A DNA stretch of 64,000 nucleotides from Beroe forskalii (taxonomy: Eukaryota > Ctenophora > Nuda > Beroida > Beroidae): the NCBI GenBank assembly GCA_011033025.1, contig WFMF01000007.1:930001-994000 (forward strand). The letters run 5' to 3'. The stretch's first letter is position 1, and the number at the start of each line of letters is the position of its first letter. Positions 1-62,834 of this stretch are shown piece by piece. The notes under the pieces are model-generated. The model saw only the letters and a list, made by a program, of their open reading frames with translations. It was not told the origin of the DNA and did no database searches. Position numbers and translations under genes: made by a program.

Positions 1-88
1 GTTTGAACAATGTACAGAGAAGGACAAGTTGGTGATTGACACAAACAAAGCAGAGATTGCCAAGCTTCAAGATGAAATTCTGTTAGAG
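1..88 (+). CDS. Coiled-coil protein gene, first visible exon (5' truncated)
   Basis: The window opens inside an exon of a plus-strand gene that I do not recognise. The frame reads FEQCTEKDKLVID followed by a charged helical stretch ending QDEILLE, then a GT. Together with the following exons it encodes a Glu/Lys/Gln-rich protein with strong coiled-coil character, with no catalytic motif seen. The gene runs to about 6518: exons 201-313, 531-746, 972-1133, 1761-1810, ~2045-2192, 2968-3168, 5286-5440 and possibly 6410-6518. Reading phases agree across most junctions. The donor here (gttggt) is not a strong match, so the exon end is approximate. Confidence 0.6.
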
Positions 89-200
89 GTTGGTATCACT
101 GATTGATTATATAAAATGCGCGTCTATGTTATTAATCCCTTCGTCCATTGTTGTTGCATGTGTACACATATATGGGTGAAACTCAATGGAAATCCCCCAG

Positions 201-313
201 AAAACCAAGGTGGATAACGTACAACAGAAGATGGAGGAAGCCTACTCAATCCTGAAGGAGATGGGATACGATACTGAGAAACTTAGTGAAGTCAACGTTA
301 TCAGCGATAAAGA
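201..313 (+). CDS. Coiled-coil gene exon
   Basis: Acceptor cccccag precedes and donor gtaagt follows. The exon encodes KTKVDNVQQKMEEAYSILKE and continues MGYDTEKLSEVNVISDKE, an amphipathic helix. It ends in phase 2, and the first base of the next exon (531) completes a Glu codon, which supports both junctions. Confidence 0.7.
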
Positions 314-530
314 GTAAGTGGATGGAGTTTCCTTCCATTTAACATGATGCCTGGCAATTCTTTATCAGTTTTTAGACCGCCATGAAGACCTTAAGGGGGC
401 TTAGTATTTGATTTTTGAAGAAATTTTCCTGTAACTTCTGCTGTCTTTCTGGCTTACTCTTCGATATAGATACCGAGAAAAAAAACCCGCGATGGGGTAC
501 CACTAAGGGCTTTAATCCACCACTTCACAG

Positions 531-746
531 GAAGTTCCTGAAATACGAGGAGCGGTTGAAGGAGAGTATGAACCACTCGATAAAGATGAAGGAGGAACGG
601 ATAGCTGTCCTGGAGGACAGAGTCAAGGAGAACACTTGCCAGAACGATATCCTGCGACAGGAACTCTCCATCATCAAGGGACAGAATAAGGATGTGAAGA
701 AGCACAATAGGAGTCTGCAGGAGAGTCTGGATGCCAGCATTACGAG
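531..746 (+). CDS. Coiled-coil gene exon with long heptad stretch
   Basis: Acceptor cttcacag and donor gttagt bound about 72 codons beginning KFLKYEERLKESMNHS and including ERIAVLEDRVKEN and LRQELSIIKGQNKDVKKHN. Leu/Ile/Val recur at heptad spacing, so this is a confident coiled coil. The exon ends in phase 2 (ACG AG). Longer open frames over this stretch run into intron sequence on either side and are not the gene product. Confidence 0.75.
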
Positions 747-971
747 GTTAGTGTTTTTAACCTCGTTGTAGGTAGGGCGATGGTTAGAGTGATCATGATT
801 TTGTTGTATTTCCTGTTTCCTGGAGTTGGACAAAAAATCATAGGACAAAAATAATAACCCCTAATCCCCCGCTTATAACGCCTCATCCCCTCTAATAACC
901 CATCGCTCCCTCTAATAACTCCGTCACTCCCCCAGTAACCAAAGTGCCACGCCGCCCACTCGTCGCATCAG

Positions 972-1133
972 TAAGGGAGTACAGTATGAGCACCATGTGT
1001 CAATGTCCTCTACTCCCATCAAACAGAGACCTTCTCTAGTCGCCATGACATCGCCAAAGATAAACATCAGCTCGATCAAGGAGGGTCAAGCAGCTAATGC
1101 GTCCATGAATAGCAATATTCTCAGCTTCGAATC
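972..1133 (+). CDS. Coiled-coil gene exon, Ser/Thr-rich linker
   Basis: Acceptor gtcgcatcag at 971 gives the only frame that joins the preceding phase-2 exon without a stop. The product reads SKGVQYEHHVSMSSTPIK, then a Ser/Ile/Asn-rich stretch ending NSNILSFES. It is not helical and is probably a linker between coiled coils. Donor gtaagt at 1134, phase 2. The intron upstream (840-960) holds short pyrimidine-rich repeats of CTAATAACCC type. Confidence 0.65.
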
Positions 1134-2192: not shown

Positions 2193-2967
2193 GTAAAAAC
2201 AGTGCAGTGTGTTACGACAATTCCTTCTCACTTTGGAGAGCTCTACAAACGGTTCCATCGCTCGGTTAGGTTGTTATCTGCACAGAACAGACCGCATTGT
2301 TTCGTTGTGCCATCTATAGGGCTGAAGCGTTGCTTTGCTACATCTTTCTTATATTTTTCGACTGATTGCAGTATTCCTGAACTTTTTCCAGCGTTTCTCT
2401 CTGGGATATTCTTGCCTGAAAGATATCACTTATACTTCCACTTTGACATTTCAGGATGCATATTCATTATTTACTGAGAATAGGACTTACACTGCTGTAT
2501 AACTTTCATAACTTTAAATCAAGGTCCTTGCATACAGATTATTCTGCATTGTTTGAATCCCTCAAAATAAGTGCAATTAGAGTATTCAAATTCTTAATGT
2601 TGTTCGGAAACAAACGACCTTTGCTTCTCTTACGCGAGTGTAGTGCATTGATTGGCAGAGTTTCGACTAATCAGTCTAACTTTATGATTTGTCTTGTTTT
2701 ACGCCTCAAACTCCGCCCTTGTAATATTGCGTCTTTCTGTTGCAGTGGCAATATTTATTCAAGAATTAAACTTTATTCCGTTTCTCGAACCTGTTCTAAA
2801 ATCAGGTACTCCTAACTCCTAAGAGAGCGAGTTTAAAACGTTAAATGAACGATCAACTTTAAAATATGGAGATTTCGAAAACCATGTGATTATCTTCGTA
2901 CTCCTAATTGATACTTGCTTTAGAACCAGGAACTGCTGATAAATACTAAACCCTGTACTTGTTTTAG

Positions 2968-3168
2968 AACCAGGAACTGCTGATAAAGACGATGGAGGAC
3001 CAGGAAAAGAACAGGGAAGAAGCGAGGGTATTCCAGGATCAGATCATGTACATGAAGCAGGATAACCAGAAACTTGCCATTCACCTGGCCCTCAAGTCCC
3101 AGCAATCGGAGACGGACAGCAAGAAGAAACCCTTCTACAAGAGCATCTTCAAATCCAAGAAATCAAAG
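2968..3168 (+). CDS. Coiled-coil gene exon, basic C-terminal part
   Basis: Sixty-seven codons in phase 0, beginning NQELLIKTMEDQEKNREEAR and ending in a Lys-rich tail KKPFYKSIFKSKKSK. Acceptor cttgttttag, donor gtttat. About 45 nt upstream (2922-2953) the acceptor plus the first exon bases (TTTAG|AACCAGGAACTGCTGATAAA) are present in a second, near-identical copy, so the splice acceptor is duplicated. An open frame continues downstream into the minisatellite but crosses the donor. Confidence 0.75.
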
Positions 3169-3287
3169 GTTTATATTTTACAGCACTCTTTTAGACTAAC
3201 TCCTAATGGCTGTGAGGGGTCTTTTTTTCTATGGCTCAGCGCATTTGAACACGCATCTGTGTACCCCTTTTTTAAACCTCGTCTACC

Positions 3288-5285
3288 AAGGTTCGAGAGG
3301 ACGGTGGGGGAGGTGGAGGAGTTGGGCTATCCGGTACCCCTTTCTCAACCCTCCCTACCCAGGTTCGAGAGGACGGTGGGGGAGGTGGAGGAGTTGGGCT
3401 ATCCGGTACCCCTTTCTCAACCCTCCCTACCCAGGTTCGAGAAGACGGTGGAGGAGGTGGAGGAGTTGGGCTATCCGGCACCCCCTTCTCAACCCTCCCT
3501 ACCCAGGTTCGAGAGGATGGTGGGGGTGGAGGAGTTGGGCTATCCGGCCCCCTTTCTCAACCCTCCCTACCCAGATTCGAGAGTACGGTTGAGGTGTGGG
3601 GTTATCCGGCACCCCTTTCTCAACCCTCCCTACCCAGGTTCGAGAGGACGGTGGTGGAGGTGGAGGAGTTGGGCTATCCGGCACCCCTTTCTCAACCCTC
3701 CCTACCCAGGTTCGAGAGGACGGTGGGGGTGGTGGAGGAGTTGGGCTATCCGGCACCCTTTTCTCAACCCTCCCTACCCAGGTTCGAGAGGACGGTGGGG
3801 GAGGTGGAGGAGTTGGGCTATCCGGCACCCCTTTCTCAACCCTCCCTACCCAGGTTCGAGAGGACGGTGGGGAGGTGGAGGAGTTGGGTTATCCGGCACC
3901 CTTTTCAACCCTCCTACCCAGGTTGAGGAGGTGGGGTTATCCGGCACCCTTTCTCAACCCTCCTACCCAGGTTCGAGAGGACGGTGGGGAGGTGGAGGAG
4001 TTGGGCTATCCGGCACCCCTTTCTCAACCCTCCCTACCCAGGTTTGAGAGGACGGTGGGGAGGTGGAGGGTTCACCCCTTTCTCAACCCTCCCTACCCAG
4101 GTTCGAGAAGACGGTGGGGGGTGGAGGTGTGGGTCTATCCGGCACCCCTTTCTCAACCCTCCCTTCCCAGGTTCGAGAGGACGGTGGGGGTGGAGGTGTG
4201 GGTCTATCCGGCACCCCTTTCTCAACCCTCCCTACCCAGGTACGAGAGGACGGTGGGGTTGGTGGAGGTGTGGGGCTATCTGGTACCCCTTTCTCAACCC
4301 TCCCTACCCAGGTACGAGAGGACGGTGGGGGAGGTGGAGGAGTTGGGGTATCCGGTACCCCTTTCTCAACCCTCTCTACCCAGGTTCGAGAAGACGGTGG
4401 AGGAGGTGGAGGAGTTGGGCTATCCGGCACCCCTTTCTCAACCCTCTTTAACCAGGTACGAGAAGACGGTGGAGGTGGAGGAGTGGGGCTATCCGGCACC
4501 CCTTTCTCAACCCTCCCTACCCAGGTTCGAGAAGACGGTGGGGGGTGGAGGTGTGGGTCTATCCGGCACCCCTTTCTCAACCCTCCCTTCCCAGGTTCGA
4601 GAGGACGGTGGGGGTGGATGTGTGGGTCTATCCGGCACCCCTTTCTCAACCCTCCCTACCAAGGTTCGAGAGGACGGTGGGGGAGGTGGAGGAGTTGGGC
4701 TATCCGGTACCCTTTCTCAACCCTCCCTACCCAGGTTCGAGAGGACGGTGGGGGAGGTGGAGGAGTTGGGCTATCCGGCACCCCTTTCTCAACCCTCCCT
4801 ACCCAGGTTCGAGAGGACGGTGGGGGTGGTGGAGGAGTTGGGCTATCCGGCACCCCTTTCTCAACCCTCTTTAACCAGGTACGAGAAGACGGTGGGGGTG
4901 GAGGAGTGGGGCTATCCGGCACCCCTTTCTCAACCCTCCCTACCCAGGTTCGAGAAGACGGTGGGGGAGGAGGTGTGGTTCATCCGGCACCCTTTCAACC
5001 CTCCCTTCCCAGGTTCTGAGAGGACGGTGGGGGTGGAGGTGTGGTTCATCCGCACCTTTCTCAACCCTCCCTACCCAGGTACGAGAGGACGGTGGGGGTG
5101 GTGGAGGTGTGGGGCTATCTGGTACCCCTTTCTCAACCCTCCCTACCCAGGTTCGAGAGGACGGTGGGGGTGGAGGAGTTGGCCTATCCGGTACCCCTTT
5201 CTCAACCCTCCCTACCCAGGTTCGAGAAGACGGTGGGGGAGGAGTTGGGCTATCCGGCACCCCTTTCTCAACCCTCCCTACCCAG
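3288..5285 (+). repeat. 72-bp minisatellite of about 30 splice-acceptor-bearing units
   Basis: The unit is nominally 72 bp and each copy contains TTTCTCAACCCTCCCTACCC followed by AG, then GTTCGAGAGGACGGTGGGGG. The pyrimidine tract and AG are those of the genuine acceptor at 5285, and the bases after AG are copies of the start of exon 5286-5440. I count about 30 acceptor-like junctions from 3288 to 5285. A 72-bp unit equals 24 codons and reads VREDGGGGGGVGLSGTPFST followed by LPTQ without a stop, in phase 0, the phase of the upstream exon. Several units carry small indels that would shift frame. The long Gly-rich, Pro-rich and Arg-rich open frames here, on both strands, are by-products of the repeat. 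Confidence 0.9.
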
Positions 5286-5440
5286 GTACGAGAGGACGCT
5301 GGTGGAGGAGGTGGAGGAGTTGGCCTATCCGGCACCCCCCACATTGACGAGTATCTGGACCAACTCTCCCTGGACAGCGGAGAGCGGGTAACGCCTCCAG
5401 ACTACGATAACAACGGCTTCTACCACCGCGACCACTTTGC
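5286..5440 (+). CDS. Coiled-coil gene exon after the minisatellite
   Basis: Starts in phase 0 immediately after the last acceptor of the array and reads VREDAGGGGGGVGLSGTP, then unique sequence HIDEYLDQLSLDSGERVTPP and DYDNNGFYHRDHFA. Donor gtaagt at 5441. The Gly-rich N-terminal end of the exon is the seed of the 72-bp minisatellite. The unique acidic part argues that this is true coding sequence. If an upstream acceptor were used, some multiple of 24 Gly-rich residues would be added. Confidence 0.7.
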
Positions 5441-8187: not shown

Positions 8188-8293
8188 GCGCCACCGTCGG
8201 CTGTTGGAGTTGATCAGAGGAAACAGGCAGAGAATTTCCTGCTGAAATTCAAGAAATCAGACAAACCTTACGCTATCTGCAAGAGGATCTTAG
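8188..8293 (+). CDS. XPO4: Exportin-4 exon A
   Basis: First recognised exon of exportin-4, a karyopherin-beta family nuclear export receptor; its known vertebrate homologue exports eIF5A and Smad3 and imports Sox factors with Ran. Acceptor tttccag, then APPSAVGVDQRKQAENFLL and KFKKSDKPYAICKRIL, matching the N-terminal HEAT repeat of animal XPO4. The true first exon (about 25 residues) was not found between 6.5 and 8.2 kb. Donor gtgagc, phase 1. The plus-strand gene continues with exons 8951, 9435, 10013, 13820, 15828, 16336, 17820, 18071, 18467 and 20525. All its exons are HEAT-repeat sequence. The gene breaks off after 20658, at the inverted-repeat centre. Confidence 0.8.
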
Positions 8294-8429
8294 GTGAGCA
8301 CTTCCTTCCGGATTAAGGAATACAATTAAGAGATTAGGGCAATACTAAGATTCCAGTATCTCTAATTAAGGACCAGCAATGAGTGTAGAATGTATGTAAA
8401 CGATTTCGCGCGCAAATTTTGACGTACGG

Positions 8430-8565
8430 CGCGGTAACGTTTTGTCCTAGTAGCACACTATTTTTATGCGCAAATCTATTTTCATCGCGCGCGCGCGCAG
8501 TGGCGCGCGCGCGCCACGTACGCTCCAAATCGATCGGGGCGGCCTGCGCGCATTTGGCCGGACGG
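8430..8565. repeat. CG-rich intronic segment with (GC)n runs
   Basis: Alternating GCGCGC runs with palindromic GGCGCGCGCGCGCC sit in otherwise AT-moderate intron sequence of XPO4. They have potential for Z-DNA or hairpins. No gene is seen. Confidence 0.6.
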
Positions 8566-8950
8566 GCTACGGATTTTGCAGTCCTGAATCGGGCAGGAGT
8601 ACTGGTCGGTGGACTGCTAGTATGAGTGGTAGGTTTCTACTCGCCATAGATGACAAGTTCGAAGTTCGCTCAGGTAACGTAGGAAGTGCACTGCAATGTG
8701 CTCTGTGCCCAGCATCATCAACATGATCAAACATCGGACCAGGCAGAATTCATCGTACACCATCCGTTTAACCCTTTCAGAGAACCTGTTCCTTCCCCCA
8801 AGAAGCCTTATCTTAGACATCCCCCATCCAAGGCGAATAATAGGAATAAATTTAATTATTTTTCAGGCGAAGTAGTTATCTCTTCGTACAAAAGGCAAGA
8901 CTTTGCGACTTTTCCTTGTACGATAACTAAGGAACTGACAATCATTTCAG

Positions 8951-9092
8951 AAAGTTCTGAAGACCCTTACCTCCATTTCCTTGCTTCGTCGACCCTGAAA
9001 GAAGGTATCATGCGGGAGTGGGCTATGTTGGGAAACGAGGAGATAGACCAGTTGAGAGACTACCTGTTAAACTACACTCACCATCATCTCAA
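8951..9092 (+). CDS. XPO4: Exportin-4 exon B
   Basis: Acceptor catttcag. AA joins the preceding G to make Glu: ESSEDPYLHFLASSTLKEG, then IMREWAMLGNEEIDQLRDYL. It aligns with the XPO4 segment around the conserved VREW motif and following helix. Donor gtaagg, phase 2. Confidence 0.85.
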
Positions 9093-9229
9093 GTAAGGCA
9101 CTGATCAGCTTCCTTCAATCGAGTACTTCTACTTGGTTTGAAATGAAATTCAACAGCTGTAGTTTCTCTGATAATTTTGAAGTAAATAGAGGAATCCTCC
9201 AGTATACAATCCAAATTCCAAATCACCAC

Positions 9230-9433
9230 AAAGTTACCCCCTCTCTCCCAAATTACCACAGTGACCACCTCCTCTCCCAAATCACCAAAAAGTGACCACC
9301 TCTCCCAAATTAATACAAAGTGACCCCTCCTCTTACAAATCACCACAAAGTAACCCCCCTCTTACAAATCACCACAAAGTGACCCCATCCTCTCCCGAAT
9401 CACCACAAAGTAACCCCCTCCTTTCCCCTCCCA
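9230..9433 (+). repeat. Minisatellite running up to an XPO4 acceptor
   Basis: Eight or so copies of a unit near CAAATCACCACAAAGTGACC with CTCTCCC run directly into the acceptor tttcccctcccag of exon C at 9434, so the pyrimidine tract of the acceptor is built from the last repeat copies. Confidence 0.75.
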
Positions 9434-9434
9434 G

Positions 9435-9687
9435 CTCACACACCTACGTGCTGCGTCAGATGCTGCACGTTGTAGCCCTCATAGTCAAGCGGTCCCTCCT
9501 AACCCGGGAGCCAGCGTACCTCCAGGGATTTGTGAGCAACGTGTGCTCTCTCTTCAAGTCTCCCACCACCCTAAATCTTGGTCTGGAGATTGCGGGGGCA
9601 CTCCTGGCGGAGTTTACTGTGGCAGATAAGACCCTGTCTAGTTACATGAGTTACCAGCACAACTTGGACTGCAAGAAAGCGATAGAG
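9435..9687 (+). CDS. XPO4: Exportin-4 exon C
   Basis: Phase 2 to phase 0, 84 codons: NSHTYVLRQMLHVVALIVKR, then SLLTREPAYLQGFVSNVCSL and a third helix LNLGLEIAGALLAEF. It corresponds to the XPO4 segment with the AVIVKRG motif. Donor gtatgt. Confidence 0.88.
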
Positions 9688-9799
9688 GTATGTGGAAATG
9701 TATGGGGCTGTTAGATGACTGCAAGACACAAAATTCACGTATAATATGGTTAAAGCTTTCGCCGCAATCTATATCGAGAGATTCATTTTTTCACAATTC

Positions 9800-10012
9800 A
9801 GGTGCTATTCCCCCCCTTCCCCGAGGATGGAGGGCCCCACTTTTTTCTACTTATTTCCTTAGGGTGACGGATTCGAGTGCTTTGCCGCTACCTGAGGGTC
9901 CTGAGAACCTAAGTCTTAACAAACAATTCTTCCCCTTCAGGGCGACGGTTTGTATTTCAAGTCCAAAGTTTTAACCTTATTCCAGAGGGCTCCCCTAATT
10001 CCTTCCCTTCAG
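9800..10012 (+). repeat. Triplicated acceptor upstream of XPO4 exon D
   Basis: Three degenerate copies of the exon D acceptor and first codons (pyrimidines, AGGGTGACGGTTTGTAT) occur at about 9860, 9940 and 10011. Only the last continues into conserved coding sequence. Confidence 0.6.
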
Positions 10013-10163
10013 GGTGACGGTTTGTATCAGATCTTCGTGTGCACGGTGGAAGTGATAAACCAGCTGCGGGGCGCCACCCCGGTGGAACAGCACCGGAAGG
10101 AGTGGATCCAGGTCATGAACATCCTCTACTCCGTGCTCAGTTGGGACTTCGGGGTCATACTAT
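10013..10163 (+). CDS. XPO4: Exportin-4 exon D
   Basis: Phase 0 start: GDGLYQIFVCTVEVINQLRG, ending in MNILYSVLSWDFGVILC, matching the XPO4 ANQVLSWNF region. Donor gtgagt, phase 1. In other XPO4 proteins about 40 residues (through a conserved W-x-x-x-L motif) lie between this exon and exon E, but I could not find their exon in 10164-13819. The intron holds the repeats at 10216-12460. Confidence 0.88.
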
Positions 10164-10215
10164 GTGAGTAACATGGCTTCTTGAGGGGGGGGGTCGTTCT
10201 CATTCACGGGGAACG

Positions 10216-10357
10216 GACATTTTTACCTCACAATTTTTTACCTCACAAGACTTTAAAACACATGATGTCATGATATTTCAACTATGGGCCTGGGTTACTG
10301 GGTTTAGGTTATGGTTAGGTTCAGGGGAGGGGGATAAAGTGCATTGAGGTAAAATGT
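10216..10357. mobile_element. Short MITE-like element with GACATTTTTACCTCA ends
   Basis: Begins GACATTTTTACCTCA and ends TGAGGTAAAATGTC, which are inverted relative to each other. About 120 bp of its interior and roughly 50 bp of downstream flank recur at 12247-12460, so two copies of one family flank about 1.7 kb. TTAGG-like bases inside (TTTAGGTTATGGTTAGG) are degenerate and not telomeric. Confidence 0.6.
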
Positions 10358-10499
10358 CTGAGGTTGTATGTCGGCCTTCCCCATCCACAGTCACCCTGGC
10401 GGTTAGGATCACCTGTTGTGGGCGATCTGTGATGGGGGCGATTTTAGGTAAAGAAAAATAAGAGGATTCTGTGGTGTATATATTTGAGTCTGAGCTTAA

Positions 10500-10645
10500 T
10501 GCTAGCTCCCACGAGCTAAGAAGAGGGTTCATATAAGTGTGGCCAGCTCCCTTGAGCTGGAAATATAGCTTAGCTCAAAGACGCCAGCTCCCTTGAGCTG
10601 GTAATAGCTAAGACAAGAGGCACCAGCTCCCACGAGCTGGGAATA
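10500..10645. repeat. Four spaced CCAGCTCCCTTGAGCTGG palindromes
   Basis: Four near-identical 18-nt inverted repeats (AGCTCCC[AT][TC]GAGCT core) spaced 30-50 nt apart in the XPO4 intron. Each can form a small hairpin. Confidence 0.65.
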
Positions 10646-10699
10646 TAGGCCCTATGGCAGAGTAACGCCACCCATCTTTCCTGGTTAGAGTCGGTAGTA

Positions 10700-12060
10700 G
10701 AAAATAGGGCCTAGGCATCAGAAGTGGGAATAGTGAATTTAACGTCGACTAAAATCTCATGAATGGAGGGAAACAATGAAACACAAGTTTAGGCACGGGC
10801 AACAATAGTTCAAGTCTCTAACCATACTGATATCAAATATAATCTATGAGCAATAAAATCAATCATATAATAATCAATTCAATAACTAGCAATACTGAAC
10901 TTTAGCAATAGATCTCTATAGACGAATAATATCAAATCATATATAATGTCTCATACTATTAGTCATCCTTTAACTATAGCTACACGAAGGCCGTTATAAA
11001 AATGAGAGACATAGAGAGGGAGTCATGAAATACCTTAGCCACTAACCTAGTTTGGAAAACCTCGAATTTAAAGCAAGGGGGCTAATCACCGAGAAAGTCA
11101 TTCAAACCTAATCAGTCATAGCTATCAACGGCAGAAGTGACTCCCTCTCAGGACGCGGGGGATGTCTCTGATTTTTGCTGTTTAGCACTGGCCTATATTC
11201 TATCGGCTAGGTCACGTGTGAAATCACGTGCTTGAGGAGTGTGTTTCGATCTCCCTAGCTACCTGGCCGTTTTCTCCCTCGAGCGGTGTTTAAAAGAAAA
11301 TCAGTATTCGAGAATAGCTTCAATCGTTTCTATTCAACTTCTAAAACTTTTGGTTAATTTGCTTCGCGGCTTTCTGTTTTCTCCTTGGCTACCAAGCTGT
11401 TTCTTACGTTAAACGGTGTTAAAACCCAGATTTTCATCCGACTAGCGTCGCTGTTGGTCGAACCAACTCCTCCGCGTACGATTCCGTGATGAGTTTAAAG
11501 CTGTTGGACGCTGGCCGGGTGACTATCTATGTGCTTTCAAAACTCGTTACCATTTCACCGAATTAATCTGTTACTATACTTTAAGTTTCATAATTCCAAG
11601 CAAAACATTAACTTCAAAGTGTACGTTTCCATGGCTTTCCATACACGAGTGGCCGTTCTCGTGCGATCTAGTAGTTTAAAGTTATAAATCAGCTTCTATC
11701 TACTCCCCCAGTTTTTATGAATGAACTGGAATCGAAGGAGTAAAACTATAGGAATAAAATGTGCTTCACATCACAACAGTATAGGACTAAAATAGGGACT
11801 ATACGACATGTCCATGCAAATTAAGAAATTGGTCTGCTAATCAGACCTATTTCGTTACGCCCATGCCCGGGGTTTTTATGTTCAATAAGACAATTGAGTT
11901 CTTGTCACATTAGTCCTTTCTCTTTTAAGTGACTGCCTAGGCTTCCATCATATCAATTCTTGCAGCTTTCGGAGAGGTGTTTTGTCGTTTCTGAGATGCC
12001 TATGCCTGAAGAATTTACAGAAAGTCCTTGAAGGTCAGAATATATCAGGGAGGTTGCTTG
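10700..12060. other. Intronic stretch without recognised features
   Basis: Both strands were read between the two MITE-like copies. There is no conserved coding sequence and no long repeat. It might be the interior of a larger element bounded by the 10.2 and 12.3 kb repeats. Confidence 0.4.
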
Positions 12061-12070
12061 AGTTAGTGTG

Positions 12071-12364
12071 GACATTTTCACCTCACATTTTGCCTCCAAT
12101 TGATGAGTAATGATTTATTCTCTTTTGACTCAATTGGTACAGGTACAAATCTAAACGATGTGGTTCTTTAATGACAATCAATTTCGTCGTTCTACGACAT
12201 CTTCAGGTCTCAAATTTGATTGTATAAAGTAGTTTTGTAAAGTTTTTACCTCAAAAGACTTTAACACATGATGTCATGATATTTCAACTATGGGCCTGGG
12301 TTACTGGGTTTAGGTTATGGTTAGGTTCAGGGGAGGGGGATAAAGTGCATTGAGGTAAAATGTC
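12071..12364. mobile_element. Second copy of the GACATTTT-ACCTCA element
   Basis: GACATTTTCACCTCA at 12071 and TGAGGTAAAATGTC ending at 12364 are inverted. The right-hand 120 bp are almost identical to 10239-10357. No coding capacity. Confidence 0.55.
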
Positions 12365-12403
12365 TGAGGTTGTATGTCGGCCTTCCCCATCCACAGTCAC
12401 AGT

Positions 12404-12460
12404 CTCCCATAACAGGTGATCCCAGCCACCAGGGGTGGCTGGGATCACCTGTTGTGGGAG
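12404..12460. repeat. 57-nt near-perfect hairpin
   Basis: CTCCCATAACAGGTGATCCC at the left pairs with GGGATCACCTGTTGTGGGAG at the right around a 3-nt AGG loop, giving a stem of about 27 bp with one or two mismatches. The left half is absent from the related copy at about 10395, which suggests it arose by inverted duplication of the right half. Confidence 0.8.
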
Positions 12461-13195
12461 ATCCTTTGCCGGGGTGTCTGTCATCCTATCAAAGTTAAGC
12501 TGCTTAGAAATCACTCATGAATTAAAGCATATCGCTGCTCAATCTGTTTAAAAGATCTCGATTAAAAGTTGCTATTACACAGTGATAATTATGATCTTTG
12601 AATCTTTGAATCAATCATCAAAAATTCAAATTTCATATCTCATGCCATTGGCTTACTGGGTCGAAAACCTTTTAAATAAATGACAAGAATTAATTTAATA
12701 AGTCTGAGTGGTTGAACTTGAAGTTGGAGAGCAGGTTGCCAAACTACGACTGACAGAAATGGCTAAATTTGGTCGTGTTCCACACCAGGTGCAGTCAGCA
12801 CCCATTCATATTCAGCATCGTACGTACGATAAATTTAATGTCTTACGATGAAGGGAATAGTCGTACAATGTAGGGAATAGTCGTACATGGTTACAAATAA
12901 TATTAGAATATCATTATGTTTCATGACGAAGATTAGCACGTGCTTTTTGCAAGCACCCAACCGCGTGATAACTATAAGTCTCAACAACCCAACAGCTATG
13001 AATGAAATAAAGACTCTCAGACAACCCAACAGTGAAATGCCTGGGAGTGGTCGGTACGTGGCTACGAATGATAAAACTTTTTATTTCATTTCCCGAATAT
13101 TCCTGTAAAAGCTCTATGCTAACTGCAGCTCCCTCTTCTTCTTTCCCTCAGATGTCCACTGTGACATCTATGTATTGCTCACCCCCTCTCATTTC

Positions 13196-13819
13196 ACCAT
13201 TTTCTCCCCTCCCCTCAGCTGTACCGCCTGTTCTCACCTCCCCTCCCCTCAGCTGTACCCGGCGGTCCCTCAGCTGTACCGGTTCTCACCTCCCCCTTCC
13301 CTCAGCACGTGTTCTATCTCTCTCCCTCGAGGTGATCAGCTGTACCGCCTGGACCTCCCCCTTTAGCTGTTCGCCTGTTCTCACCATTTCCCCGAATATT
13401 CCTGTAAATATCTGCTGTACCGCCTGTTCTCAACTCCTGTACCTCCCTTCCCTAGCTCCGCCTGTTTCTTCTTCCCTTTTCCCTTCACCCCCCCCCTGTT
13501 TGCCTGTTCTCACCTCCCCTTCCCTCACTTGTACCGCCTGTTCTCACCTCCCTTCCCCTCAGCTGTACCGCCTGTTCTCACCCCCCTCCCCTCCGCCCTG
13601 TTCTCACCTTTCAGCTGTACCGCCTGTTCTCACCCCCCTCCCCTCAGCTGTACCGCCTGTTCTCACCTCCCCTCTCCTCACTTGTACCGCCTGTTCTCAC
13701 CTCCCTCCCCCTCAGCTTTATCGCCTGTTCTCACCTCACCTTCCCCTCAGCTGTACCGCCTGTTCTCACCTCCCCTTCCCCTCAGCTGTACCGCCTGTTC
13801 TCACCTCCCCTCCCCTCAG
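13196..13819 (+). repeat. 34-bp minisatellite of reiterated acceptors before XPO4 exon E
   Basis: The unit is CTGTACCGCCTGTTCTC followed by ACCTCCCCTCCCCTCAG. That is the first 17 bases of exon E plus its pyrimidine tract and AG. About 16 copies, increasingly uniform toward the exon. 34 bp is not a multiple of three, so inclusion of one or two units would shift frame. The open frames here (Pro/Ser-rich VPPVLTSP type) are artefacts. Confidence 0.88.
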
Positions 13820-13977
13820 CTGTACCGCCTGTTCTCGAGTGACCGGGAGATTCAGCACGTGACCAGGCTGTGTATCGTGCAGCTGGGCACACTTCAGGGA
13901 TCTGTGTTTGATAACCAGGACGAACGGGTAACCTTCCTATCCCAGTACATTGCAGCAGTTGTCAGACTCGTTGTCAG
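13820..13977 (+). CDS. XPO4: Exportin-4 exon E
   Basis: Frame LYRLFSSDREIQHVTRLCIV, then QLGTLQGSVFDNQDERVTFL and SQYIAAVVRLVV. It corresponds to the XPO4 segment containing the ASLHGPIFPDE motif. Donor gtcagt, phase 2. Exon D ends in phase 1 and E starts in phase 0, which agrees with an unseen exon in between. Confidence 0.85.
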
Positions 13978-15827
13978 GTCAGTAACCAATCAGATTGTGA
14001 AATTTAAATCAGCGGGCGCTCTGATTGGACAATGTATCCCAGTGAATTTCAGCTGCTGTTGTCAGGTTATAATATTGCTTGCGGGCATCTACCAATCAGA
14101 GCACGCGATCTCAGATAGCTCGAGTTCTGACTGGTCAATGCCTCGTTCAATGGGGCTGGCAAGTCAATCGAGCCCATGTTTTGGTGCACGAGCTAAAAAC
14201 TCAATTCTGCGGAGCTAGTATGCCTAGTAATATCAAGAGAGCCAGTAACCTCCTGATCCTAGACATGGGTTGTCCTCCACTCATGGCTCTAGTGCAGAAT
14301 GATGGAGCCCACACCTTGGGATAACTAAATATTTGAGGGATCCTCAATATGTGAGGTCTCAAACTGGCGTTTTGGGGCTCCCGTACTTGCAGCTCCATTT
14401 CAATTCGGAATATACTCGCTTTCTTTGCTACACAATGCACACTTTGCTTTGAAAACAGAGCGTTCCATTTTCTAAACCATTCCACCACATCAAGATGAAG
14501 GATAATTGGTTAAAATGGTTGTCTGGTTCCATTGCTGAGTGGTTTTAAATTCTAATATATTTAAAAGTTTAAATATTCTATCGTACGCTACCGTACGTTA
14601 AAATATTTTATGTATTCAGGATTTTAAAAGGAATTATAGCCGAGTAAAGTGGTTAATTTATGCTAAAAGTCTCTCAGTCGTTTAAGGAAATATAGAACTA
14701 TGATCTGAACGTTAATAAACGCGTGCACATGGTTTATGATAATTAATGTATGGTGACTTGAGTTAACTTTACCGATTCAATGATTAATGGCTCTGCTCAT
14801 GAAAATTGTGGGTAAGTCAACTGCTCCTGAACAATAAAAAGTCAGTTTTTAAAAAATAAAATTTTGATCATGTTATGATAAACTGATGATCAAATAGAAA
14901 ATAATTTCTTTATCACCAGCATGAGCAAATACAATATCTTGCCATTTTGCGTACCCCGCAGATCGAGAAACTATGACTCTGCTGGATGCTCAAGACCAGA
15001 ATAAATCTTAAACTTATAGGAAATTCGTAATGATGTAATGATTTATCTTTTTGTGTTCCATTATCTAGTCAAATGATCCCAAGACTGTGTCTGGTTAATT
15101 AATAATCATCGATAGCGATTGGTTGTTGATTGAGACTGCAGTTGCAGGAAATTGAAGTTTTTGGGGGAAATCCTGAGACGCAGCTTAACATTAAAACTCT
15201 GGGAATATCCTCATAAAACCATAAGTAATGTACCTTAATTAGTAAGCAGAATACTGGTTCTATTATTAGGCGACGCATATTATGAATTTTCTCATAAAAC
15301 ACAATTGTTATGCTGTTAAGCTGTCCAGTCCTTTAAATTCTCCTGGAATATGAAGACTAGACACCCATGATTTTCGCCAAAACTTCCTCATATCCTCATG
15401 GGAAATCAAGAAAATCGAAGAAAAGCGTATTTGCTGTTTTGAGTGCATTATCATGATCTCTTAGGGAAGAATTGTCTCGGGAATTATTATTCCAATCGGT
15501 TATTATTCCGATCCACACATCATTATCACAAATTTATTTTCAGATCCACGTCTCCTTCTCCATCTTGCCAGAAACTTCCATCCCATTCCATTTCTACAAA
15601 TAGCCTTGCTAAAACTTGAGAACTTTATAGGTTGATCACTAGCGGAATTATTTGACAGCCCCGCGGCCCACCTCATCTCCACATCAGCTTTTCAGGCTGA
15701 CGATGATAATCACATGATTTTCGAAAGCTTCTGATGATGACTTCCCCGTACCAATTAAACGTTGAAGTCTTGATTCATACTTATCAGGGCTTTTTTGAGG
15801 AAGTCTTGACATCCCCATCCTTTTCAG

Positions 15828-16063
15828 GGCTTGTGAGTTGCCAGGGAGTGAGGAAGATCACGGCCTGGCTCTGGCAGTCCGCCAACTCCTGTGGGCCAAC
15901 ACGTGTCAGGACCTCAAGAACATCCACGTGTCACTCTTCAAGGAATTCCTTGCTGCTCTCACGGAGCTGTCTCTGAAAGTCTTCCTTAACTCTTCCAGGG
16001 ATACTGAGGAGAACCTTGCTTTTTATTTCATTGATCTGGTAGTGATCTTAGCTCCTTTCTCAG
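15828..16063 (+). CDS. XPO4: Exportin-4 exon F
   Basis: Phase 2 joins AG to G for Arg: RACELPGSEEDHGLALAVRQ, then LWANTCQDLKNIHVSLFKEF and LAALTELSLKVFLNSSRDTE. It matches the XPO4 PSELFSSFVNCLTHL region. Taking gtaata as donor ends in phase 1, but exon G starts in phase 0. A weaker donor, gtagtg after FYFIDL (16041), would be in phase and fits the usual length better. The acceptor with TCAGGGCTT is duplicated about 40 nt upstream. Confidence 0.82.
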
Positions 16064-16335
16064 GTAATAGTCCTGTCTCGTGATTCCGGCAAATTCATAA
16101 GTACCCTCCCTTTCTGTATGACTTACTATTCATCGACTTCCCTCCCCTAACCCAGTGAAATACAAATACTTTTCTTCACGTTAATAAGTCCTAACCTTCC
16201 TAAGTCCTAAATCTTTCATGCCTGTACGGGGAATAAGAGGAATCTTAACATAGTGCAGCCACTATTTCACACGAAGTCGCTGTCGCTTTGCGTGCTATGA
16301 TCATGGCGCCATTCCAACCACCATTTCATTTCCAG

Positions 16336-16515
16336 GAGAACACGGAGGATGTTGTGGACGTGATTCTGGACGTGTGGCTGACCCTGAACCAGATGATGGA
16401 CACCCTGCCCCGGTCCCCCCTCGACACTTGCATGCTCAGAGTCGTGGAGTGCTACCTTAACTGCCATCTGGCTCCCCCCGTGGGAATAAGGGATGATTCT
16501 ACTGACCTAGAGGAG
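16336..16515 (+). CDS. XPO4: Exportin-4 exon G
   Basis: Sixty codons, ENTEDVVDVILDVWLTLNQM and then a helix ending VVECYLNCHLAPPVGIRDD with STDLEE. It aligns with the XPO4 LLESWLTLVQ and CHLAAPDGTRN motifs. The donor gtgagt belongs to the first unit of a 58-bp repeat. The first eight codons differ from the minus-strand copy. Confidence 0.88.
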
Positions 16516-16862
16516 GTGAGTGTCATCTGGCTCCCCCCGTGGGAATACGGGATGATTCTACTGACCTAGAGGAGGTGAGTGTCATCTGGCTCCCCCCGTG
16601 GGAATAAGGGGTGATTCTACTGACCTAGAGGAGGTGAGTGTCATCTGGCTCCCCCCGTGGGAATACGGGATGATTCTACTGACCTAGAGGAGGTGAGTGC
16701 CATCTGGCTCCCCCCGTGGGAATAAGGGATGATTCTACTGACCTAGAGGAGATAGGTGTCATCTGGCTCCCCCCGTGGGAATAAGGGATGATTCTACTGA
16801 CCTAGAGGAGGTGAGTGTCATCTGGCTCCCCCCGTGGGAATAAGGGATGATTCTACTGACAT
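16461..16862 (+). repeat. 58-bp repeat reiterating the exon G donor
   Basis: Seven copies, the first inside exon G. The unit includes CATCTGGCTCCCCCCGTGGG, GATTCTACTGACCTAGAGGA and the donor G|GTGAGTG. Six copies carry the GAG|GTGAGTG-type donor; one has GAT|AGGTGTC and the last is truncated. The other arm (28200-28390) has only three copies. Confidence 0.9.
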
Positions 16863-17149
16863 TGAGAACTGACACGTCAACTAACAAGTAACCACTTTGC
16901 GCGTTAATGTAGTGATTTCAAGCCAGTCGCCATTTTCCCTATAATATCATCTCCTCACGTTGATAAATCATTCATTTCACACAACGTTTCTGCCGATTTA
17001 CTAAAATGCTGGTGATTAGTATCATTTAAAATAATTCATTTCATATATTATTAGGATTTACACTAATACAAAGTTTCATATTTACCCTCCCGAACCGATA
17101 AAAGCAATTTTTTTGAGATTTATAATCAGTAAGTTCATGCTAATCTCAC

Positions 17150-17815
17150 TTAATGATTCCCCATCCCCCATGGATATTTATTCCCCTTCACACACGATTC
17201 CCCTTTCCCACACGATTCCCCTCCCCCCATCATTCGAATTCCCTTTTCCCCATCATTTCCCTTCCCCATCCCCCAGGCCCATGAGTCCCTTCCCCCCACA
17301 TGATTTTCCTCCCCCACCATTCCCCTTTTCCCCCACCATTCCCTTTTCCCACACCATTCCCTTTCCCCACACCATTCCCCTTTTCCCACCATTCCCTTTT
17401 CCCCACCATTCCCCTTTTTCCCATCATTCCCCTTTTCCCATCATTCCCCTTTTCCCCATCATTCCCTTTTCCCATCCCCTTTTCCCACCATTCCTTTTTC
17501 CCCCCACCATTCCCCTTTTCCCCACAATTCCCCTTTTCCCACACCATTCCCCTATCCCCCACCATCCCCCTTTTCCCACACCATTCCCCTTTTCCCACAC
17601 CATCCCCCTTTCCCCCACTATTCCCCTTTCCCCCACCATTCCCCTTTTCCCACACCATTCCCCTCCCCCACCATTCCCCTTTTCCCACACCATTCCCCTT
17701 TTCCCCCACCATTCCCCTTTCCCCCCACCATTCTCCTTTTCCCACACCATTCCCCTTTTCCCACGCCATTCCCCTTTTCCCACCATTCCCCTTTTCCCCC
17801 ACCATTCCCCTTTTC
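17150..17815 (+). repeat. Polypyrimidine CCATTCCCCTTTTCCCA array before XPO4 exon H
   Basis: About 40 copies of a 15-17-bp pyrimidine unit (CCATTCCCCTTTTCCCACA) run directly into the acceptor cttttcccag of exon H. Nearly pure polypyrimidine on the plus strand, so it can act as an extended pyrimidine tract and may form triplex (H-DNA). The open frames in it ([10 protein letters not shown]) are artefacts. Confidence 0.92.
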
Positions 17816-17819
17816 CCAG

Positions 17820-17894
17820 ATAGATCTGGACACTGAAGAAGATGACCGTGTGAAGTATCGGGATCAGCTGGACATTGTGGGCAGCTTAGCCCGG
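17820..17894 (+). CDS. XPO4: Exportin-4 exon H
   Basis: Twenty-five codons in phase 0: [20 protein letters not shown] and GSLAR. This is the XPO4 signature EEDDRDQFSDQLASVGMLGR region. Donor gttagt. Confidence 0.92.
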
Positions 17895-18070
17895 GTTAGT
17901 TGGACGAAGTTGCGAAAATTGAACTAAAATTGGGATAAAATGAGCTTTTGATAAACTTTTTGGCGATTTACTTGAGGTCATAAACGTGCACGATATTATC
18001 AAGTTTCATGAAAATTGGAAGTGCATAAAACTGGCGTTTACAACTGGCTTTTAAAATCCTATTCGTTTAG

Positions 18071-18169
18071 GTAAACATCGCCTCCACCCTCAAGCACTAC
18101 AACCTGCTGCTGCTGGATCGCACCCGGCACCTCAAGTCAAGAGTAGAGGCTCAGGAGGAGTGTAATCCT
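18071..18169 (+). CDS. XPO4: Exportin-4 exon I
   Basis: Thirty-three codons, VNIASTLKHYNLLLLDRTRH and LKSRVEAQEECNP, phase 0 at both ends. It matches the XPO4 helix following the GRIAAE motif. Acceptor attcgtttag, donor gtgagt. Confidence 0.88.
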
Positions 18170-18466
18170 GTGAGTTTTACTCGACATTGACTTATCAGCG
18201 AGGGAGTTGATCGTGAACTCGCACCTTGATTGGTCAATGTCATGAAGATTTCAGGATCCTACGCATGCAATCTCCAGTTCCAGAGAACTCTCAGTACCTT
18301 TATCGACTAAATCTTATTGTTCATCCTTTTCAAAACCCCCAAAATGTCAGTGTCCCAGATTGTATGATTTTACTAATAAGCCATCCCCTAATCCCCATGC
18401 CCAACCTCCTTATCACCATCCTCTAATCCCCTCATCCCTTGCTGACATTATTCACACCATATGCAG

Positions 18467-20330: not shown

Positions 20331-20334
20331 CTAG

Positions 20335-44498: not shown

Positions 44499-44594
44499 AT
44501 ACATCAGTTTATGTAGGATTTTGAGCAGGTCCGATGATTGTTCGATGTAGCCTTTATATCCTACATTTTACATAATTCTTGGTGTTCGATCACT

Positions 44595-44745
44595 TGCAGA
44601 CATTAGCTAATCTTCTGGTTGCAGACATTAGCTAAGCTTCTGGTTGCAGATATTAGCTAAGCTTCTGGTTGCAGATATTAGCTAAGCTTCTGGTTGCAGA
44701 CATTAGCTAAGCTTCTGGTTGCAGACATTAGCTAAGCTTCTGGTT
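44595..44745 (-). repeat. 25-bp repeat copying the stop codon of the membrane protein gene
   Basis: Six copies on the minus strand of CAACCAGAAGCTTAGCTAAT plus GTCTG. The first copy (minus orientation) contains the last codons Gln-Pro-Glu-Ala and the TAG stop at 44732-44734. The other five lie in the 3' UTR. Confidence 0.9.
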
Positions 44746-45205
44746 GCTCTTCCCCTTCTTTTCGAAAGAGGGTGCATTGAATTAATAAGCCCAAAGCCAA
44801 GCCGAGCCCAGCCAAAATATCAAATGCAAATATAGCACAGCCTTTGGGACCTAATTTAATATTATTGGCTACAAAATAACCAATAATTGTGATGATCCAA
44901 TCAATACAAGTAAGAAGAGTGAGAAGCCCAGCCAATAGAATGCCACAACAGATCCCAATTCTCAACAATTTTCTCACCGATCGCAGAGCCTCCAGCTTTC
45001 CAGCATCAATCAGAACCACTGCTATTGACAAGAGGGTGGCACCCCCTGCGAAGAAGAAGGCGATTAGGTTTGTGACTGGGAAGGCGCCACGGCCGATATT
45101 AGCGATGAGGCGGGGGTGGATCCTTCCGAAGATACAGACGGTTAGGAAAAGTGCGAAAGTAGCACCAGCATTGACCAAAGCACCGATAATATTCAACCTT
45201 GTCAT
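44732..45205 (-). CDS. Four-helix membrane protein (tetraspan-like), uncharacterised
   Basis: 157 codons with four clear hydrophobic segments: residues about 6-28 (IIGALVNAGATFALFLTVCI), 46-68 (LIAFFFAGGATLLSIAVVLI), 84-114 (IGICCGILLAGLLTLLTC onward) and 126-147 (AIFAFDILAGLGLALGLLIQ). The tail KEGEEQPEA is acidic. The four-helix plan with short loops resembles MARVEL/tetraspan-type small membrane proteins, but I recognise no family motif. The ATG lies 2 nt after a good acceptor (ctcccaccag), so a 5' UTR exon is likely upstream. It lies antisense inside intron 1 of the ABCG-like gene. Charged residues at loop ends and the lack of stops over 157 codons support coding. Confidence 0.7.
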   Translation of the reverse strand: MTRLNIIGALVNAGATFALFLTVCIFGRIHPRLIANIGRGAFPVTNLIAFFFAGGATLLSIAVVLIDAGKLEALRSVRKLLRIGICCGILLAGLLTLLTCIDWIITIIGYFVANNIKLGPKGCAIFAFDILAGLGLALGLLIQCTLFRKEGEEQPEA

Positions 45206-59489: not shown

Positions 59490-61475
59490 TAAGACTAGCA
59501 GGCCCGTTGGGCCTGCAAATACACAGCTCACTCGGCGCTGCTACGCAGCACCTCGTTCGCAAATTTCAAATCAACTCAATACTTTTTACCGCATCAAAAA
59601 ATTCCGACCACATCAAAAGTTATGAAGCTCCAAAATTAAAACATCATTAAACAGAAATGAACGCGCGCACAGTTAATCTGCACGTGCAATTTCCCCAATT
59701 GCGCGCGCGTTGCCATGGGGCGTGACGTACAAAGAAAAAACACAATTTGCGACTTTATAAGTAAGACTAGCAGGCCCGTTGGGCCTGCAAATACACAGCT
59801 CACTCGGCGCTGCTACGCAGCACCTCGTTCGCAAATTTCAAATCAACTCAATACTTTTTACCGCATCAAAAAATTCCGACCACATCAAAAGTTATGAAGC
59901 TCCAAAATTAAAACATCATTAAACAGAAATGAACGCGCGCGCAGTTAATCTGCACGTGCAATTTCCCTATTGCGCGCGTTGCCATGGGGCGTGACGTACA
60001 AAGAAAAAACACAATTTGCGACTTTATAAGTAAGACTAGCAGGCCCGTTGGGCCTGCAAATACACAGCTCACTCGGCACTGCTGCGCAGCACCTCGTTCG
60101 CAAATTTTCAAATCAACTTAATACTTTTTACCGCATCAAAAAATTCCAGCCATATCAAAAGTTATGGAGCAGCATTAAAGAGAATTGAACGCGCGCAATA
60201 TGTTATCATAGCAACGCGCGCGCATATATCCATACTGCACGTGCAGGCTTCAAAATGTGCCTACAAAAGGACAAAAAACGTTACGGACGTACATAATACA
60301 GAGGTTACGAAATTATATTAGAGACCAGCAGGCCCGTCGGACCTGCAAATACGAAGCTCAATCGGCGCTGCTACGCAGCACCTTTTTCGCAAGATTCAAA
60401 TCAACTAAATACTTTTTACCGCATCAACATTTTCCAATCAGATCAAAAGTTATTACGAATCAACGGATTCAAGTATTCAAAACAGCTTCAAACAGAAATG
60501 AGCGCGCGCGCAATATGTAACCATAGCAACGCGCGCGCATATATCCATACTTCACGTGGGCGCCCCAAAATGTGTCTACGAAAGGACAAAAAACGTTAGT
60601 GTTACTACGTACAAAAAATAATAATATTACAGAGGTTCCGAAATTATATTAGAGATTATGTGCACAGCGTGGCCATAGGATAAAAGCGAACAGAAACACC
60701 ACAAATTACTACGTCGAAGTTCAATTAAGTTGAAGAATAGAAGGATGGAAGATGGGTGTTGCAACGTTTGGATGATGGATAACATCACGTGATTAGCATA
60801 TGTATGGAAGGTGATCGCTGTTCTATTCATCATTAATTTTGCTCAATTACTCTCGGCTCTTACTCTTGTCTGCATTATAATCAACTAGCAGGCCCGTTGA
60901 GCCTGCAAATACACAGCTTACTCGGCGCTGCTTCGCAGCAGCTCCTTCACAAATTTAAACCCCTACAATTCGTATCAATATTAGTTGAATACTTTTACCG
61001 CATCGAAAAATTCGAATCAGATCAAAAGTTACGGAGCAACGTATTCAAAACAGCATTTAACAGAAATGAACGCGCGCACAATATGCAGCCAGAGCAACGC
61101 GCGCGCTTATATCCATACTGCACGTGGGCGCCCTAAAATGTGTCTACAAAAGGACAAAAAACGTGACTTACAGAAAACATACAGAAAGCGCGAAATTATA
61201 AGTAAGACTAGCAGGCCCGTTAAGCCTACAAATACACAGCTCACTCGGTGCTGCTACGCAGCACCTCGTTTGCGAAATTCAAATCAACCAAATACATTCT
61301 ACCGCATCGAGAAATTCCAATCAGATCAAAAGTTATGAAGCAACGCGCGCAATATGTAACCATAGCAGCGCGCGCATATATCCATACTGCACGTGGGCGC
61401 TCCAAAATGTGTCTACAAAAGGACAAAAAACGTGACGGAGGAACATAATACAGAGGTTGCGAAATTGTAGTGTTT
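59490..61475. mobile_element. Head-to-tail array of six GCAGGCCC-hairpin repeat units
   Basis: Unit starts at about 59493, 59765, 60034, 60323, 60884 and 61205. Each has ACTAGCAGGCCCGTTGGGCC (hairpin), CTCACTCGGCGCTGCTACGC and AGCACCTCGTTCGCAAATTT, TTTTTACCGCATCAAAAAAT, AAAAGTTATG, then a CG-rich tail with GCGCGCGC, ACTGCACGTG and ACAAAAGGACAAAAAACGT. The first two are about 97% alike and the others more diverged. Tandem arrangement and the minus-strand hairpin plus CTAGT end suggest a Helitron/Helentron-type non-autonomous family; a SINE is an alternative. Open frames are artefacts. Confidence 0.75.
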
Positions 61476-61575
61476 CTCCTAATTATAGCGTTTCAACTTA
61501 AATCTAAAATGTTTCTACCTCTTTTTTTGAAAGACTTCAATATCAAATAATTTCTTGACATATAAAACGACGCAG

Positions 61576-61698
61576 GTTACATCAGCGACAGTGAAGCTAA
61601 GAAAGGTCTCTGTAATGGCGAGAGCAAAGCTCCGATGGTGGAACAGAAACTCTACCCGGACAACTGCCTCAGATTCGACCTTGTCTGCTGTGCCACAG
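61576..61698 (+). CDS. ABCG-type ABC transporter, coding exon 2
   Basis: Acceptor aaacgacgcag; GT completes the Gly codon from 43907: GYISDSEAKKGLCNGESK, then APMVEQKLYPDNCLRFDLVC and CAT. The LRFDLVC part matches the start of the ABCG nucleotide-binding domain, where a beta strand of the VEFKDLSY type precedes the Walker A. Donor gtacgt, phase 1, in frame with exon 3. Confidence 0.75.
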
Positions 61699-62466
61699 GT
61701 ACGTGGCTTCAGATAAACAGGGTACAACAGTTACATACGTTTGATGCGCATATCCATATGTATTTATGTAGGGTGTATGTAAATAATTTATCTCCCGTTT
61801 TCTCCCATTTGAATTTTGCATCTGGCAACTTATCTACTCTACATATTCTGTTGGAAGTATTGCAACAATCTGCTCGACATCTGTTGGAAGTGTTGCAACA
61901 ATGTAAAATCTTCCATTGTACACAGAATTATATCATGAAGCACCTGTTCACTTGAGTTGATGTATTATCATACTCACAAAGGGCTTCCTCGGTCAATGTG
62001 CAATGTACAATGTACATCATACAATGATATAATCAAGGACGTGTCAAGTTGTAATATTTTACACATGCTGAAGCCATTCAAAAGCTCAGATATCATAGAT
62101 TTATCACTTTTAAACTTATTTTATTTTAAAGATAGCCACACTTGCATCACTGTCCTGAATCAGCACAGCAATCTCAGTTTTCAAATTTAAGCAAATTCGA
62201 TTATTCGATTTTACTCGATAACAAAAGTTGATTTCAAACGCTCTTTGAAATTTAAACTTTTTTAGAGATAAGGATTTTTCTAGTCTCGTGATCAACTGGT
62301 ATGCAATTGGTTGAGCAGAGAAAAATGCAATTTTGTACGCTATCGAATCACCATTCTCAGCCTTGATAATGACCCTACACTCATATCAATCACCTATTAT
62401 TTTATCATACTACGTACTACTTATTATCCGTTCTGTAACCTATGTCAACCGTACATTTCCCTTCAG

Positions 62467-62584
62467 ACCGTGGCATAAAGCTGAACAAATGTTACGGCGA
62501 GTTTTACGGGAAACAAGTGACTGCGATCATGGGACCTTCTGGATCCGGGAGATCTACTCTCCTCAAGATCCTTGCTGGTGTCAA
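62467..62584 (+). CDS. ABCG-type ABC transporter, coding exon 3 (Walker A)
   Basis: Joined to exon 2 it reads DRGIKLNKCYGEFYGKQVTA and IMGPSGSGRSTLLKILAGV. AIMGPSGxGxST-L-x-ILAG is the ABCG Walker A context (P-loop, ATP binding). The invariant Lys of GxxGxGK is Arg here (AGA). Gene order and the beginning of the fold fit an ABCG half-transporter. Donor gtgagt at 62585. No later exon lies in the window, so the signature motif, Walker B and membrane domain are not visible. Confidence 0.88.
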
Positions 62585-62686
62585 GTGAGTCAACTTAATA
62601 TCAATACACTTGCTGGTGTCAAGTGAGTCAACTTACTAAGCTACTATCAAGCCACTTGCTAAATGCTGGTGTCAAGTGCGTCAATA
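62566..62686 (+). repeat. Triplicated donor of ABCG exon 3
   Basis: TTGCTGGTGTCAAGTGAGTC at about 62569, a second copy with an intact GTGAGT about 42 nt downstream, and a third (GCTGGTGTCAAGTGCGTCAA) with a changed donor at about 62663. The exon's last bases plus donor are the repeat unit. Confidence 0.85.
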
Positions 62687-62834
62687 TCTTGGGAAAGCGC
62701 CCAAGCTCATTAAAACAGAAAAGTTGAATTTTGAGCGGCTTTGATTCCACTTCATTTTGTATTAATAGATAAAACGGTTGTAAATTTGAAGATATCAAAT
62801 TTACGATATTAATTTGAAGATTTTGTCTTATTTT

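Follow-up and report, generated by a model that had tools for sequence, protein, structure and literature searches.

Tandem repeats that cross exon edges in genes of the ctenophore Beroe forskalii resemble the mirages of amphioxus

In several genes of the ctenophore Beroe forskalii, the edge of an exon lies inside a tandem repeat whose unit crosses the splice junction. We analyzed a 64,000-nt stretch (hereafter, the window; positions 930001-994000 of contig C802, in an assembly of 216 Mb and 1,134 contigs) and the 200 kb adjoining it (C802:730001-930000). An initial annotation of the window had reported such repeats at eight splice junctions, and seven of these (2967, 5285, 10012, 13819, 16515, 20524 and 62584) are indeed inside junction-crossing repeats. 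Four more were found in the adjoining 200 kb, every one of them at a donor. The feature is of a known kind, that of the amphioxus mirages, in a phylum that is apparently new for them, and its mechanism appears ordinary on present evidence. We consider it probable that the repeats arose by local tandem duplication, the genome being rich in minisatellites, and that the extra copies are tolerated through use of the exon-proximal splice site.

The tandem arrays of the window were located with Tandem Repeats Finder (TRF), whose 116 rows were merged into 62 arrays (or 60 when gaps of 10 bp are closed). The largest array at a junction is the one at acceptor 5285. Its unit is made up of a pyrimidine tract followed by CAG| and then by ~52 nt from the start of exon 5286-5440, and the exon edge itself belongs to the last copy. 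At acceptor 13819 the unit takes in ~17 nt from the start of exon 13820-13977, and at donor 16515 it joins the last 51 nt of exon 16336-16515 to 8 nt of intron. The eighth reported junction, 15827, was unconvincing: its best repeat partner has a score of 11, which is matched by 38% of random window positions. The copied stop codon that had been described at 44732 was confirmed, with the last codons and the stop codon of a minus-strand open reading frame (ORF, 44732-45229) repeated in a 25-bp array.

Only 3 of the 62 merged arrays cross one of the 40 annotated edges of the window (overlap of at least 8 bp), in addition to the stop-codon array. The repeats had been said to occur always at an exon edge, which is not the case, as most of the merged arrays straddle no annotated edge. 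In this count the edge of the last XPO4 exon was placed at 20541, and the array at 20327-20544 would be counted with the edge at 20524; exons left unannotated in the window could add a few straddling arrays. A 39-bp array with 67 copies (39898-42513) has no exon identified alongside.

Table 1 Junction-crossing repeats and related features in the window and in the adjoining 200 kb.
Feature	Position	Strand	Details
HOOK-like gene, repeat at acceptor 2967|2968	2912..2991	+	2 copies, 45 nt apart; exon 2968-3168
72-bp array at acceptor 5285	3263..5338	+	29 fuzzy-matched copies
XPO4, low-copy repeat at acceptor 10012	9854..10027	+	copy 72 nt upstream; weaker third near 9854
XPO4, array at acceptor 13819	13502..13836	+	34-bp unit, 9 matched copies
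XPO4, array at donor 16515	16465..16860	+	59-bp unit, 6.7 copies
XPO4, array at acceptor near 20524 (or 20541; exact AG uncertain)	20327..20544	+	~47-bp unit, 4-5 copies
ABC-transporter gene, repeat at donor 62584	62569..62688	+	3 imperfect copies
Stop-codon array of ORF 44732-45229	44594..44747	-	25-bp unit, 6.2 copies
C/T-rich 19-bp array	17310..17817	+	adjoins XPO4 acceptor 17819 without copying it
Inverted-arm copy of the XPO4 donor array	28220..28381	-	2.8 copies
Copy, in the inverted arm, of the acceptor array of XPO4 near 20524	22376..22580	-	
XPO4 (Exportin-4) gene	8188..20658	+	exons by eye; joined exons compared with PDB 5dlq
XPO4, first six exons read	8188-8293, 8867-9092 (start uncertain), 9435-9687, 10013-10163, 13820-13977, 15828-16063	+	
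XPO4, remaining five exons read	16336-16515, 17820-17894, 18071-18169, 18467-18626, 20542-20658 (or from 20525)	+	
ZER1-like gene, donor repeat	adjoining 200 kb		39-bp unit
Unnamed gene, donor repeat	adjoining 200 kb		20-bp unit
MAP2K4 orthologue, donor repeat	adjoining 200 kb		~61-bp spacing
HOOK-like gene, donor repeat just upstream of the window	adjoining 200 kb		52-bp unit, 2 copies

To annotate the exons of the window, reading frames and splice signals were followed by eye, and protein matches were used to name the genes. The joined exons of XPO4 match the solved structure of Exportin-4 (PDB 5dlq, E 6.2e-47), and judged by this match the gene is an Exportin-4 orthologue. The alignment is unbroken over 9687|10013 and 16515|17820, which supports the edges at 10012 and 16515. 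It has a gap ahead of the exon that starts at 13820, so an XPO4 exon may be missing there, and the last exon is unmatched. A coiled-coil gene (HOOK-like) occupies 1-5440. Its exons, taken together with exons from 2 kb upstream of the window, gave a weak Pfam HOOK match (E 2.8e-8; 33.4 bits, cut-off 35) that sits in an upstream exon, and the two sets of exons probably form one gene. Exon 62466-62584 matches ABC_tran (E 1.1e-6), and the ORF with the copied stop codon had no Pfam match at E 0.1.

The adjoining 200 kb was not picked for the trait; its last gene continues into the window. An ab initio coding search of this sample did no better than a reversed-sequence control at most thresholds, and exons were therefore predicted in eight hand-chosen gene spans only, which were picked from recognisable or consistent runs of frame and not at random. 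A total of 46 exons (92 edges) were predicted. Six dubious exons were dropped (three inside arrays, one array-copied MAP2K4 exon and two of low confidence), leaving 80 edges; other low-scoring exons were retained, and some of the retained edges are surely false. One frame that was cut in two by the prediction is open throughout, and we take it to be SLC7-like.

The four junction-straddling repeats of the 200 kb came from reading the repeat-positive edges. The MAP2K4 orthologue aligns with PDB 3aln (E 2.8e-101) over the donor. In the ZER1-like gene, the Pfam ZER1-like match (E 6.4e-28) falls in the exons after the one that bears the repeat. For the 20-bp array, exon prediction placed the donor in the second copy and the reading-frame test in the first copy, 20 nt upstream. 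Two further TRF arrays straddle an edge marginally (24 bp x 2.8 at an acceptor and 16 bp x 2.2 at a donor). The clear cases in the two regions number 11, of which six are donors (two in the window, four in the 200 kb) and five are acceptors (all in the window). The junction-crossing units span 20-72 bp and vary by locus.

Copy number was compared where an array is present twice. The 72-bp array has 29 matched copies in the window and 15 in an allele-like copy on contig C714, and the 59-bp XPO4 donor array has 6.7 and 2.8 copies in two inverted arms; we infer that these are differences between alleles. The arms belong to the 3' half of XPO4, which is duplicated in inverted orientation at 14611-30173 (14611-16630 and 30173-28214 are 90% identical, with the centre near 21.4 kb by eye), and a gap of Ns at ~30174-30273 adjoins the inverted arm. 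This duplication is probably two haplotypes joined head to head, because a search of the assembly turned up no further copy of the XPO4 donor region. In searches of the assembly, which give lower bounds, the XPO4, MAP2K4 and ZER1-like units had no copies away from their own gene (for XPO4, its own gene and its inverted copy), and the 72-bp unit was present at its own gene and in the allele-like copy on C714. For none of the four units searched was the same unit seen at many loci, as would define an introner or a transposed family, and the earlier statement that the units differ and are not one transposed family is thus upheld.

Under the explanation that we favor, local tandem duplication would at times begin with a unit that by chance spans an exon edge, and more duplication and unequal exchange would lengthen or shorten the array into the intron. 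The genome sample is dense in tandem arrays, and seeds should be plentiful because arrays cover 19% of the 200 kb and 24% of the window. Duplication and unequal exchange would also lead to copy-number differences between alleles. Such alleles could persist because the exon-proximal copy would keep the splice site that gives an intact frame and the spare copies would be intronic, and duplications within the exon would mostly be purged by selection. The copied stop codon could have arisen likewise, where a coding sequence ends. Spare splice sites would need no function, and tolerance had rightly been listed among the possible explanations by the initial annotation. The protein alignments span the exon-proximal sites at XPO4 10012 and 16515 and at the MAP2K4 donor. 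Past the exon-proximal donor, a stop is reached within 52 nt at all six donor arrays tested, which leaves no room for a distal donor to lengthen the protein. To judge from these sequences, splicing at the arrays is probably correct.

Several results weigh against this explanation. Most exon edges were set from reading frame and splice signals, and the stops beyond the donors are a weak argument because early stops are common in any intron. Edge-straddling arrays were also in excess when counted as seeds. In the 200 kb, five arrays straddle an edge by at least 8 bp against 1.39 expected (P 0.006, ~3.6-fold), and the two marginal arrays are among the five. The corresponding numbers were 3 against 1.05 (P 0.07) with at least 12 bp and 5 against 1.79 (P 0.02) with at least 5 bp. 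In the window, which was chosen for the trait, 3 were observed against 0.66 expected with at least 8 bp (P 0.02), and the expected number was 0.46 with at least 12 bp (P 0.006) and 0.89 with at least 5 bp (P 0.05). A cruder, earlier seed test gave 5 against 1.08 (P 0.005) in the 200 kb and 3 against 0.87 (P 0.06) in the window. When the two regions were pooled, 8 were observed against 2.05 (P 0.0005), the window being selected for the trait.

For the null, every array contributed one seed as long as its unit, and the seeds were spread uniformly over the non-coding DNA of the gene spans. The seed tests were added because a test per position weights long arrays heavily, and per position no excess was detected. 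At a score of at least 20, 6 of 39 edges in the window were positive compared with 23.6% of 8,858 positions; in the 200 kb, the positive edges were 11/92 before the dubious exons were dropped and 4/80 after, compared with 18.2% of 5,348 positions. Any false edge adds to the number expected under the seed test and dilutes the rate per position. The MAP2K4 donor was not counted in the seed tests because the TRF array crosses it by less than 8 bp, though the copies are plain in the sequence.

An excess of this kind is what a targeted process would give, in which exon edges are hot spots of tandem duplication through co-transcriptional R-loops, breakage or sequence features of exon ends, and the 200-kb sample in which it was detected was not picked for the trait. 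The near ends of arrays that stop short of an exon are also somewhat commoner within 100 bp of exons (10 in 7.6 kb against 27 in 44.8 kb, 200 kb), but this density is confounded by short introns, which push near ends close to exons. The counts are small, however, and the P value rises at the stricter overlap. Arrays take up a smaller share of the bases near exons than far from them (0.10-0.12 within 100 bp against 0.28 beyond 800 bp, 200 kb), and the density of arrays inside gene spans is not above that outside (7.0 against 8.4 and 6.7 against 11.0 arrays per 10 kb). Targeting is thus in our view unlikely to be the main cause. There may be a modest true excess of straddling at the seed level, with small numbers and with edges set mostly from reading frame and splice signals.

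Selection for spare splice sites, or for useful alternative edges such as in-frame Gly-rich repeats at 5285, seems quite improbable. Some acceptor copies would allow it: of the eight upstream copies tested in the 72-bp array, the closest three would extend the frame by 66, 135 and 207 nt without a stop, and a further 72 nt, open and in frame, would come from the copy upstream of 10012. The other five tested copies of the 72-bp array shift the frame, however, as do four of the five tested at 13819 (the fifth adds open in-frame sequence), the copy upstream of 2967 brings two in-frame stops, and the distal donors lead to stops in 6/6 arrays. The splice sites themselves give a similarly divided picture. 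The AG is intact in 29/29 copies of the 72-bp array in the window and 15/15 on C714, and the AGGT in 10/10 copies at MAP2K4, but the AG is broken in 3/9 copies at 13819. The splice site is kept better than the rest of the unit in the 72-bp, MAP2K4, ZER1-like and 20-bp arrays and worse at 13819 and 16515, and many other array columns are invariant as well. With no consistent extra conservation across the arrays, splice-site constraint was rejected as a sign of selection.

It is very improbable that the arrays are largely assembly artefacts, produced by noisy long reads or merged haplotypes. The N-filled gaps and poor-looking sequence nearby, and the inverted XPO4 duplication beside one such gap, are what an artefact might leave, but the copies differ by recurring variants, arrays with different units are present at genes independent of one another, and one gene carries them in two allele-like copies. 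The slippage targeted by the pyrimidine tract that had been suggested earlier is not favored, because donors are affected about as often as acceptors among the clear cases. The C/T-rich array next to acceptor 17819 does not copy it.

Mirages are reportedly an older finding, the original paper being that of Canestro et al. from 2002. The initial annotation knew of no named system that matched the repeats, and the mirages provide one. In the amphioxus reports, they are described as minisatellite-like tandem duplications over intron/exon boundaries, both 5' and 3', with units of 10-160 bp (PMC3087553), in Adh3 and globin genes (PMC3087553), to which PGBD5 and troponin C were added (PMC3902484), and with copy number that varies between haplotypes (PMC3087553, PMC3902484). 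Somatic instability of copy number is a further trait of mirages. The Beroe repeats are alike in that the unit lies over the exon-intron boundary, at seven of the eight window junctions and four donors of the 200 kb, and that both donor and acceptor edges are affected (6 + 5). Their units of 20-72 bp are inside the amphioxus range and locus-specific, and their copy number differs (29 against 15, 6.7 against 2.8) between what are probably alleles. They differ in the phylum and in the additional stop-codon array. In amphioxus, Adh3 data and reverse-transcription PCR of globins suggested normal splicing, whereas in Beroe splicing is deduced from open frames and homology. No report of mirages in ctenophores was found in the literature searched (one library; titles and abstract openings).

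Other systems are less similar. In human segmental-duplication genes, minisatellites at exon-intron boundaries can alter splicing, with 27 intron modifications (PMC2812944); those repeats give rise to new introns or alternative transcripts in recent paralogues, whereas the Beroe arrays are in conserved genes not known as recent duplicates. In the human IFI6 (6-16) minisatellite, repeat units serve as splice donors (PMC4526556, citing Turri et al. 1995), but this is a single gene, and its units are reportedly used as donors. Intron gain by AGGT tandem duplication involves tandem copies of an AG|GT segment (PMC4974935), and the intron is born from an exonic segment; the Beroe units straddle the edge and the introns that were read run beyond the array. 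The donor of intron 3169-5285 is outside its 72-bp array.

A few other features were noted. At 32304-36702, inverted repeats of 260 bp, 97% alike and ~4 kb apart, enclose mirrored short tandem arrays (TGAACTGCGT type and CGACT type). The region has the look of a mobile element of the foldback type, for which no target-site duplication was identified. The ORFs 7054-7908 and 63255-63800 look like retroelement remnants (by eye, GIY-YIG-like and reverse-transcriptase-like), and neither had a Pfam match at E 0.1. Elsewhere in the assembly, the exons at L015:5868-9106 are presumably the start of PRPF8, and the frames downstream seem disrupted, which would suit a pseudogene or a badly assembled copy. 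COX1, with TGA read as tryptophan, opens a 2.8-kb stretch of contig C1134 (L011). Its product is 100% identical to Beroe forskalii COX1 over 507 aa; among the best 120 of 7,999 hits, the next named ones are the ctenophores Tjalfiella sp. and Vallicula multiformis (61% each), and insects follow at about 50%. The window is therefore nuclear DNA of a ctenophore, very probably of Beroe.

Junction-crossing repeats are a hazard for annotation because a repeat-copied exon end resembles an extra exon; exon prediction gave one false exon of this kind in MAP2K4. The presence of such repeats in several genes of a ctenophore suggests that mirages may arise generally, as a side effect of an abundance of minisatellites in animal genomes, and not be an oddity of amphioxus. 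In the amphioxus literature, mirages were proposed as a source of new introns. With Beroe there are now two distant genomes for asking whether exon edges are seeded preferentially, how splicing passes over the copies, and whether arrays are converted to introns. We regard it as doubtful that exon edges in this ctenophore are true duplication hot spots, with seeding linked to transcription or splicing and several times above that of other non-coding DNA. If they were, there would be a steady supply of junction copies for shifts of exon edges and the birth of introns, from ctenophores to amphioxus.

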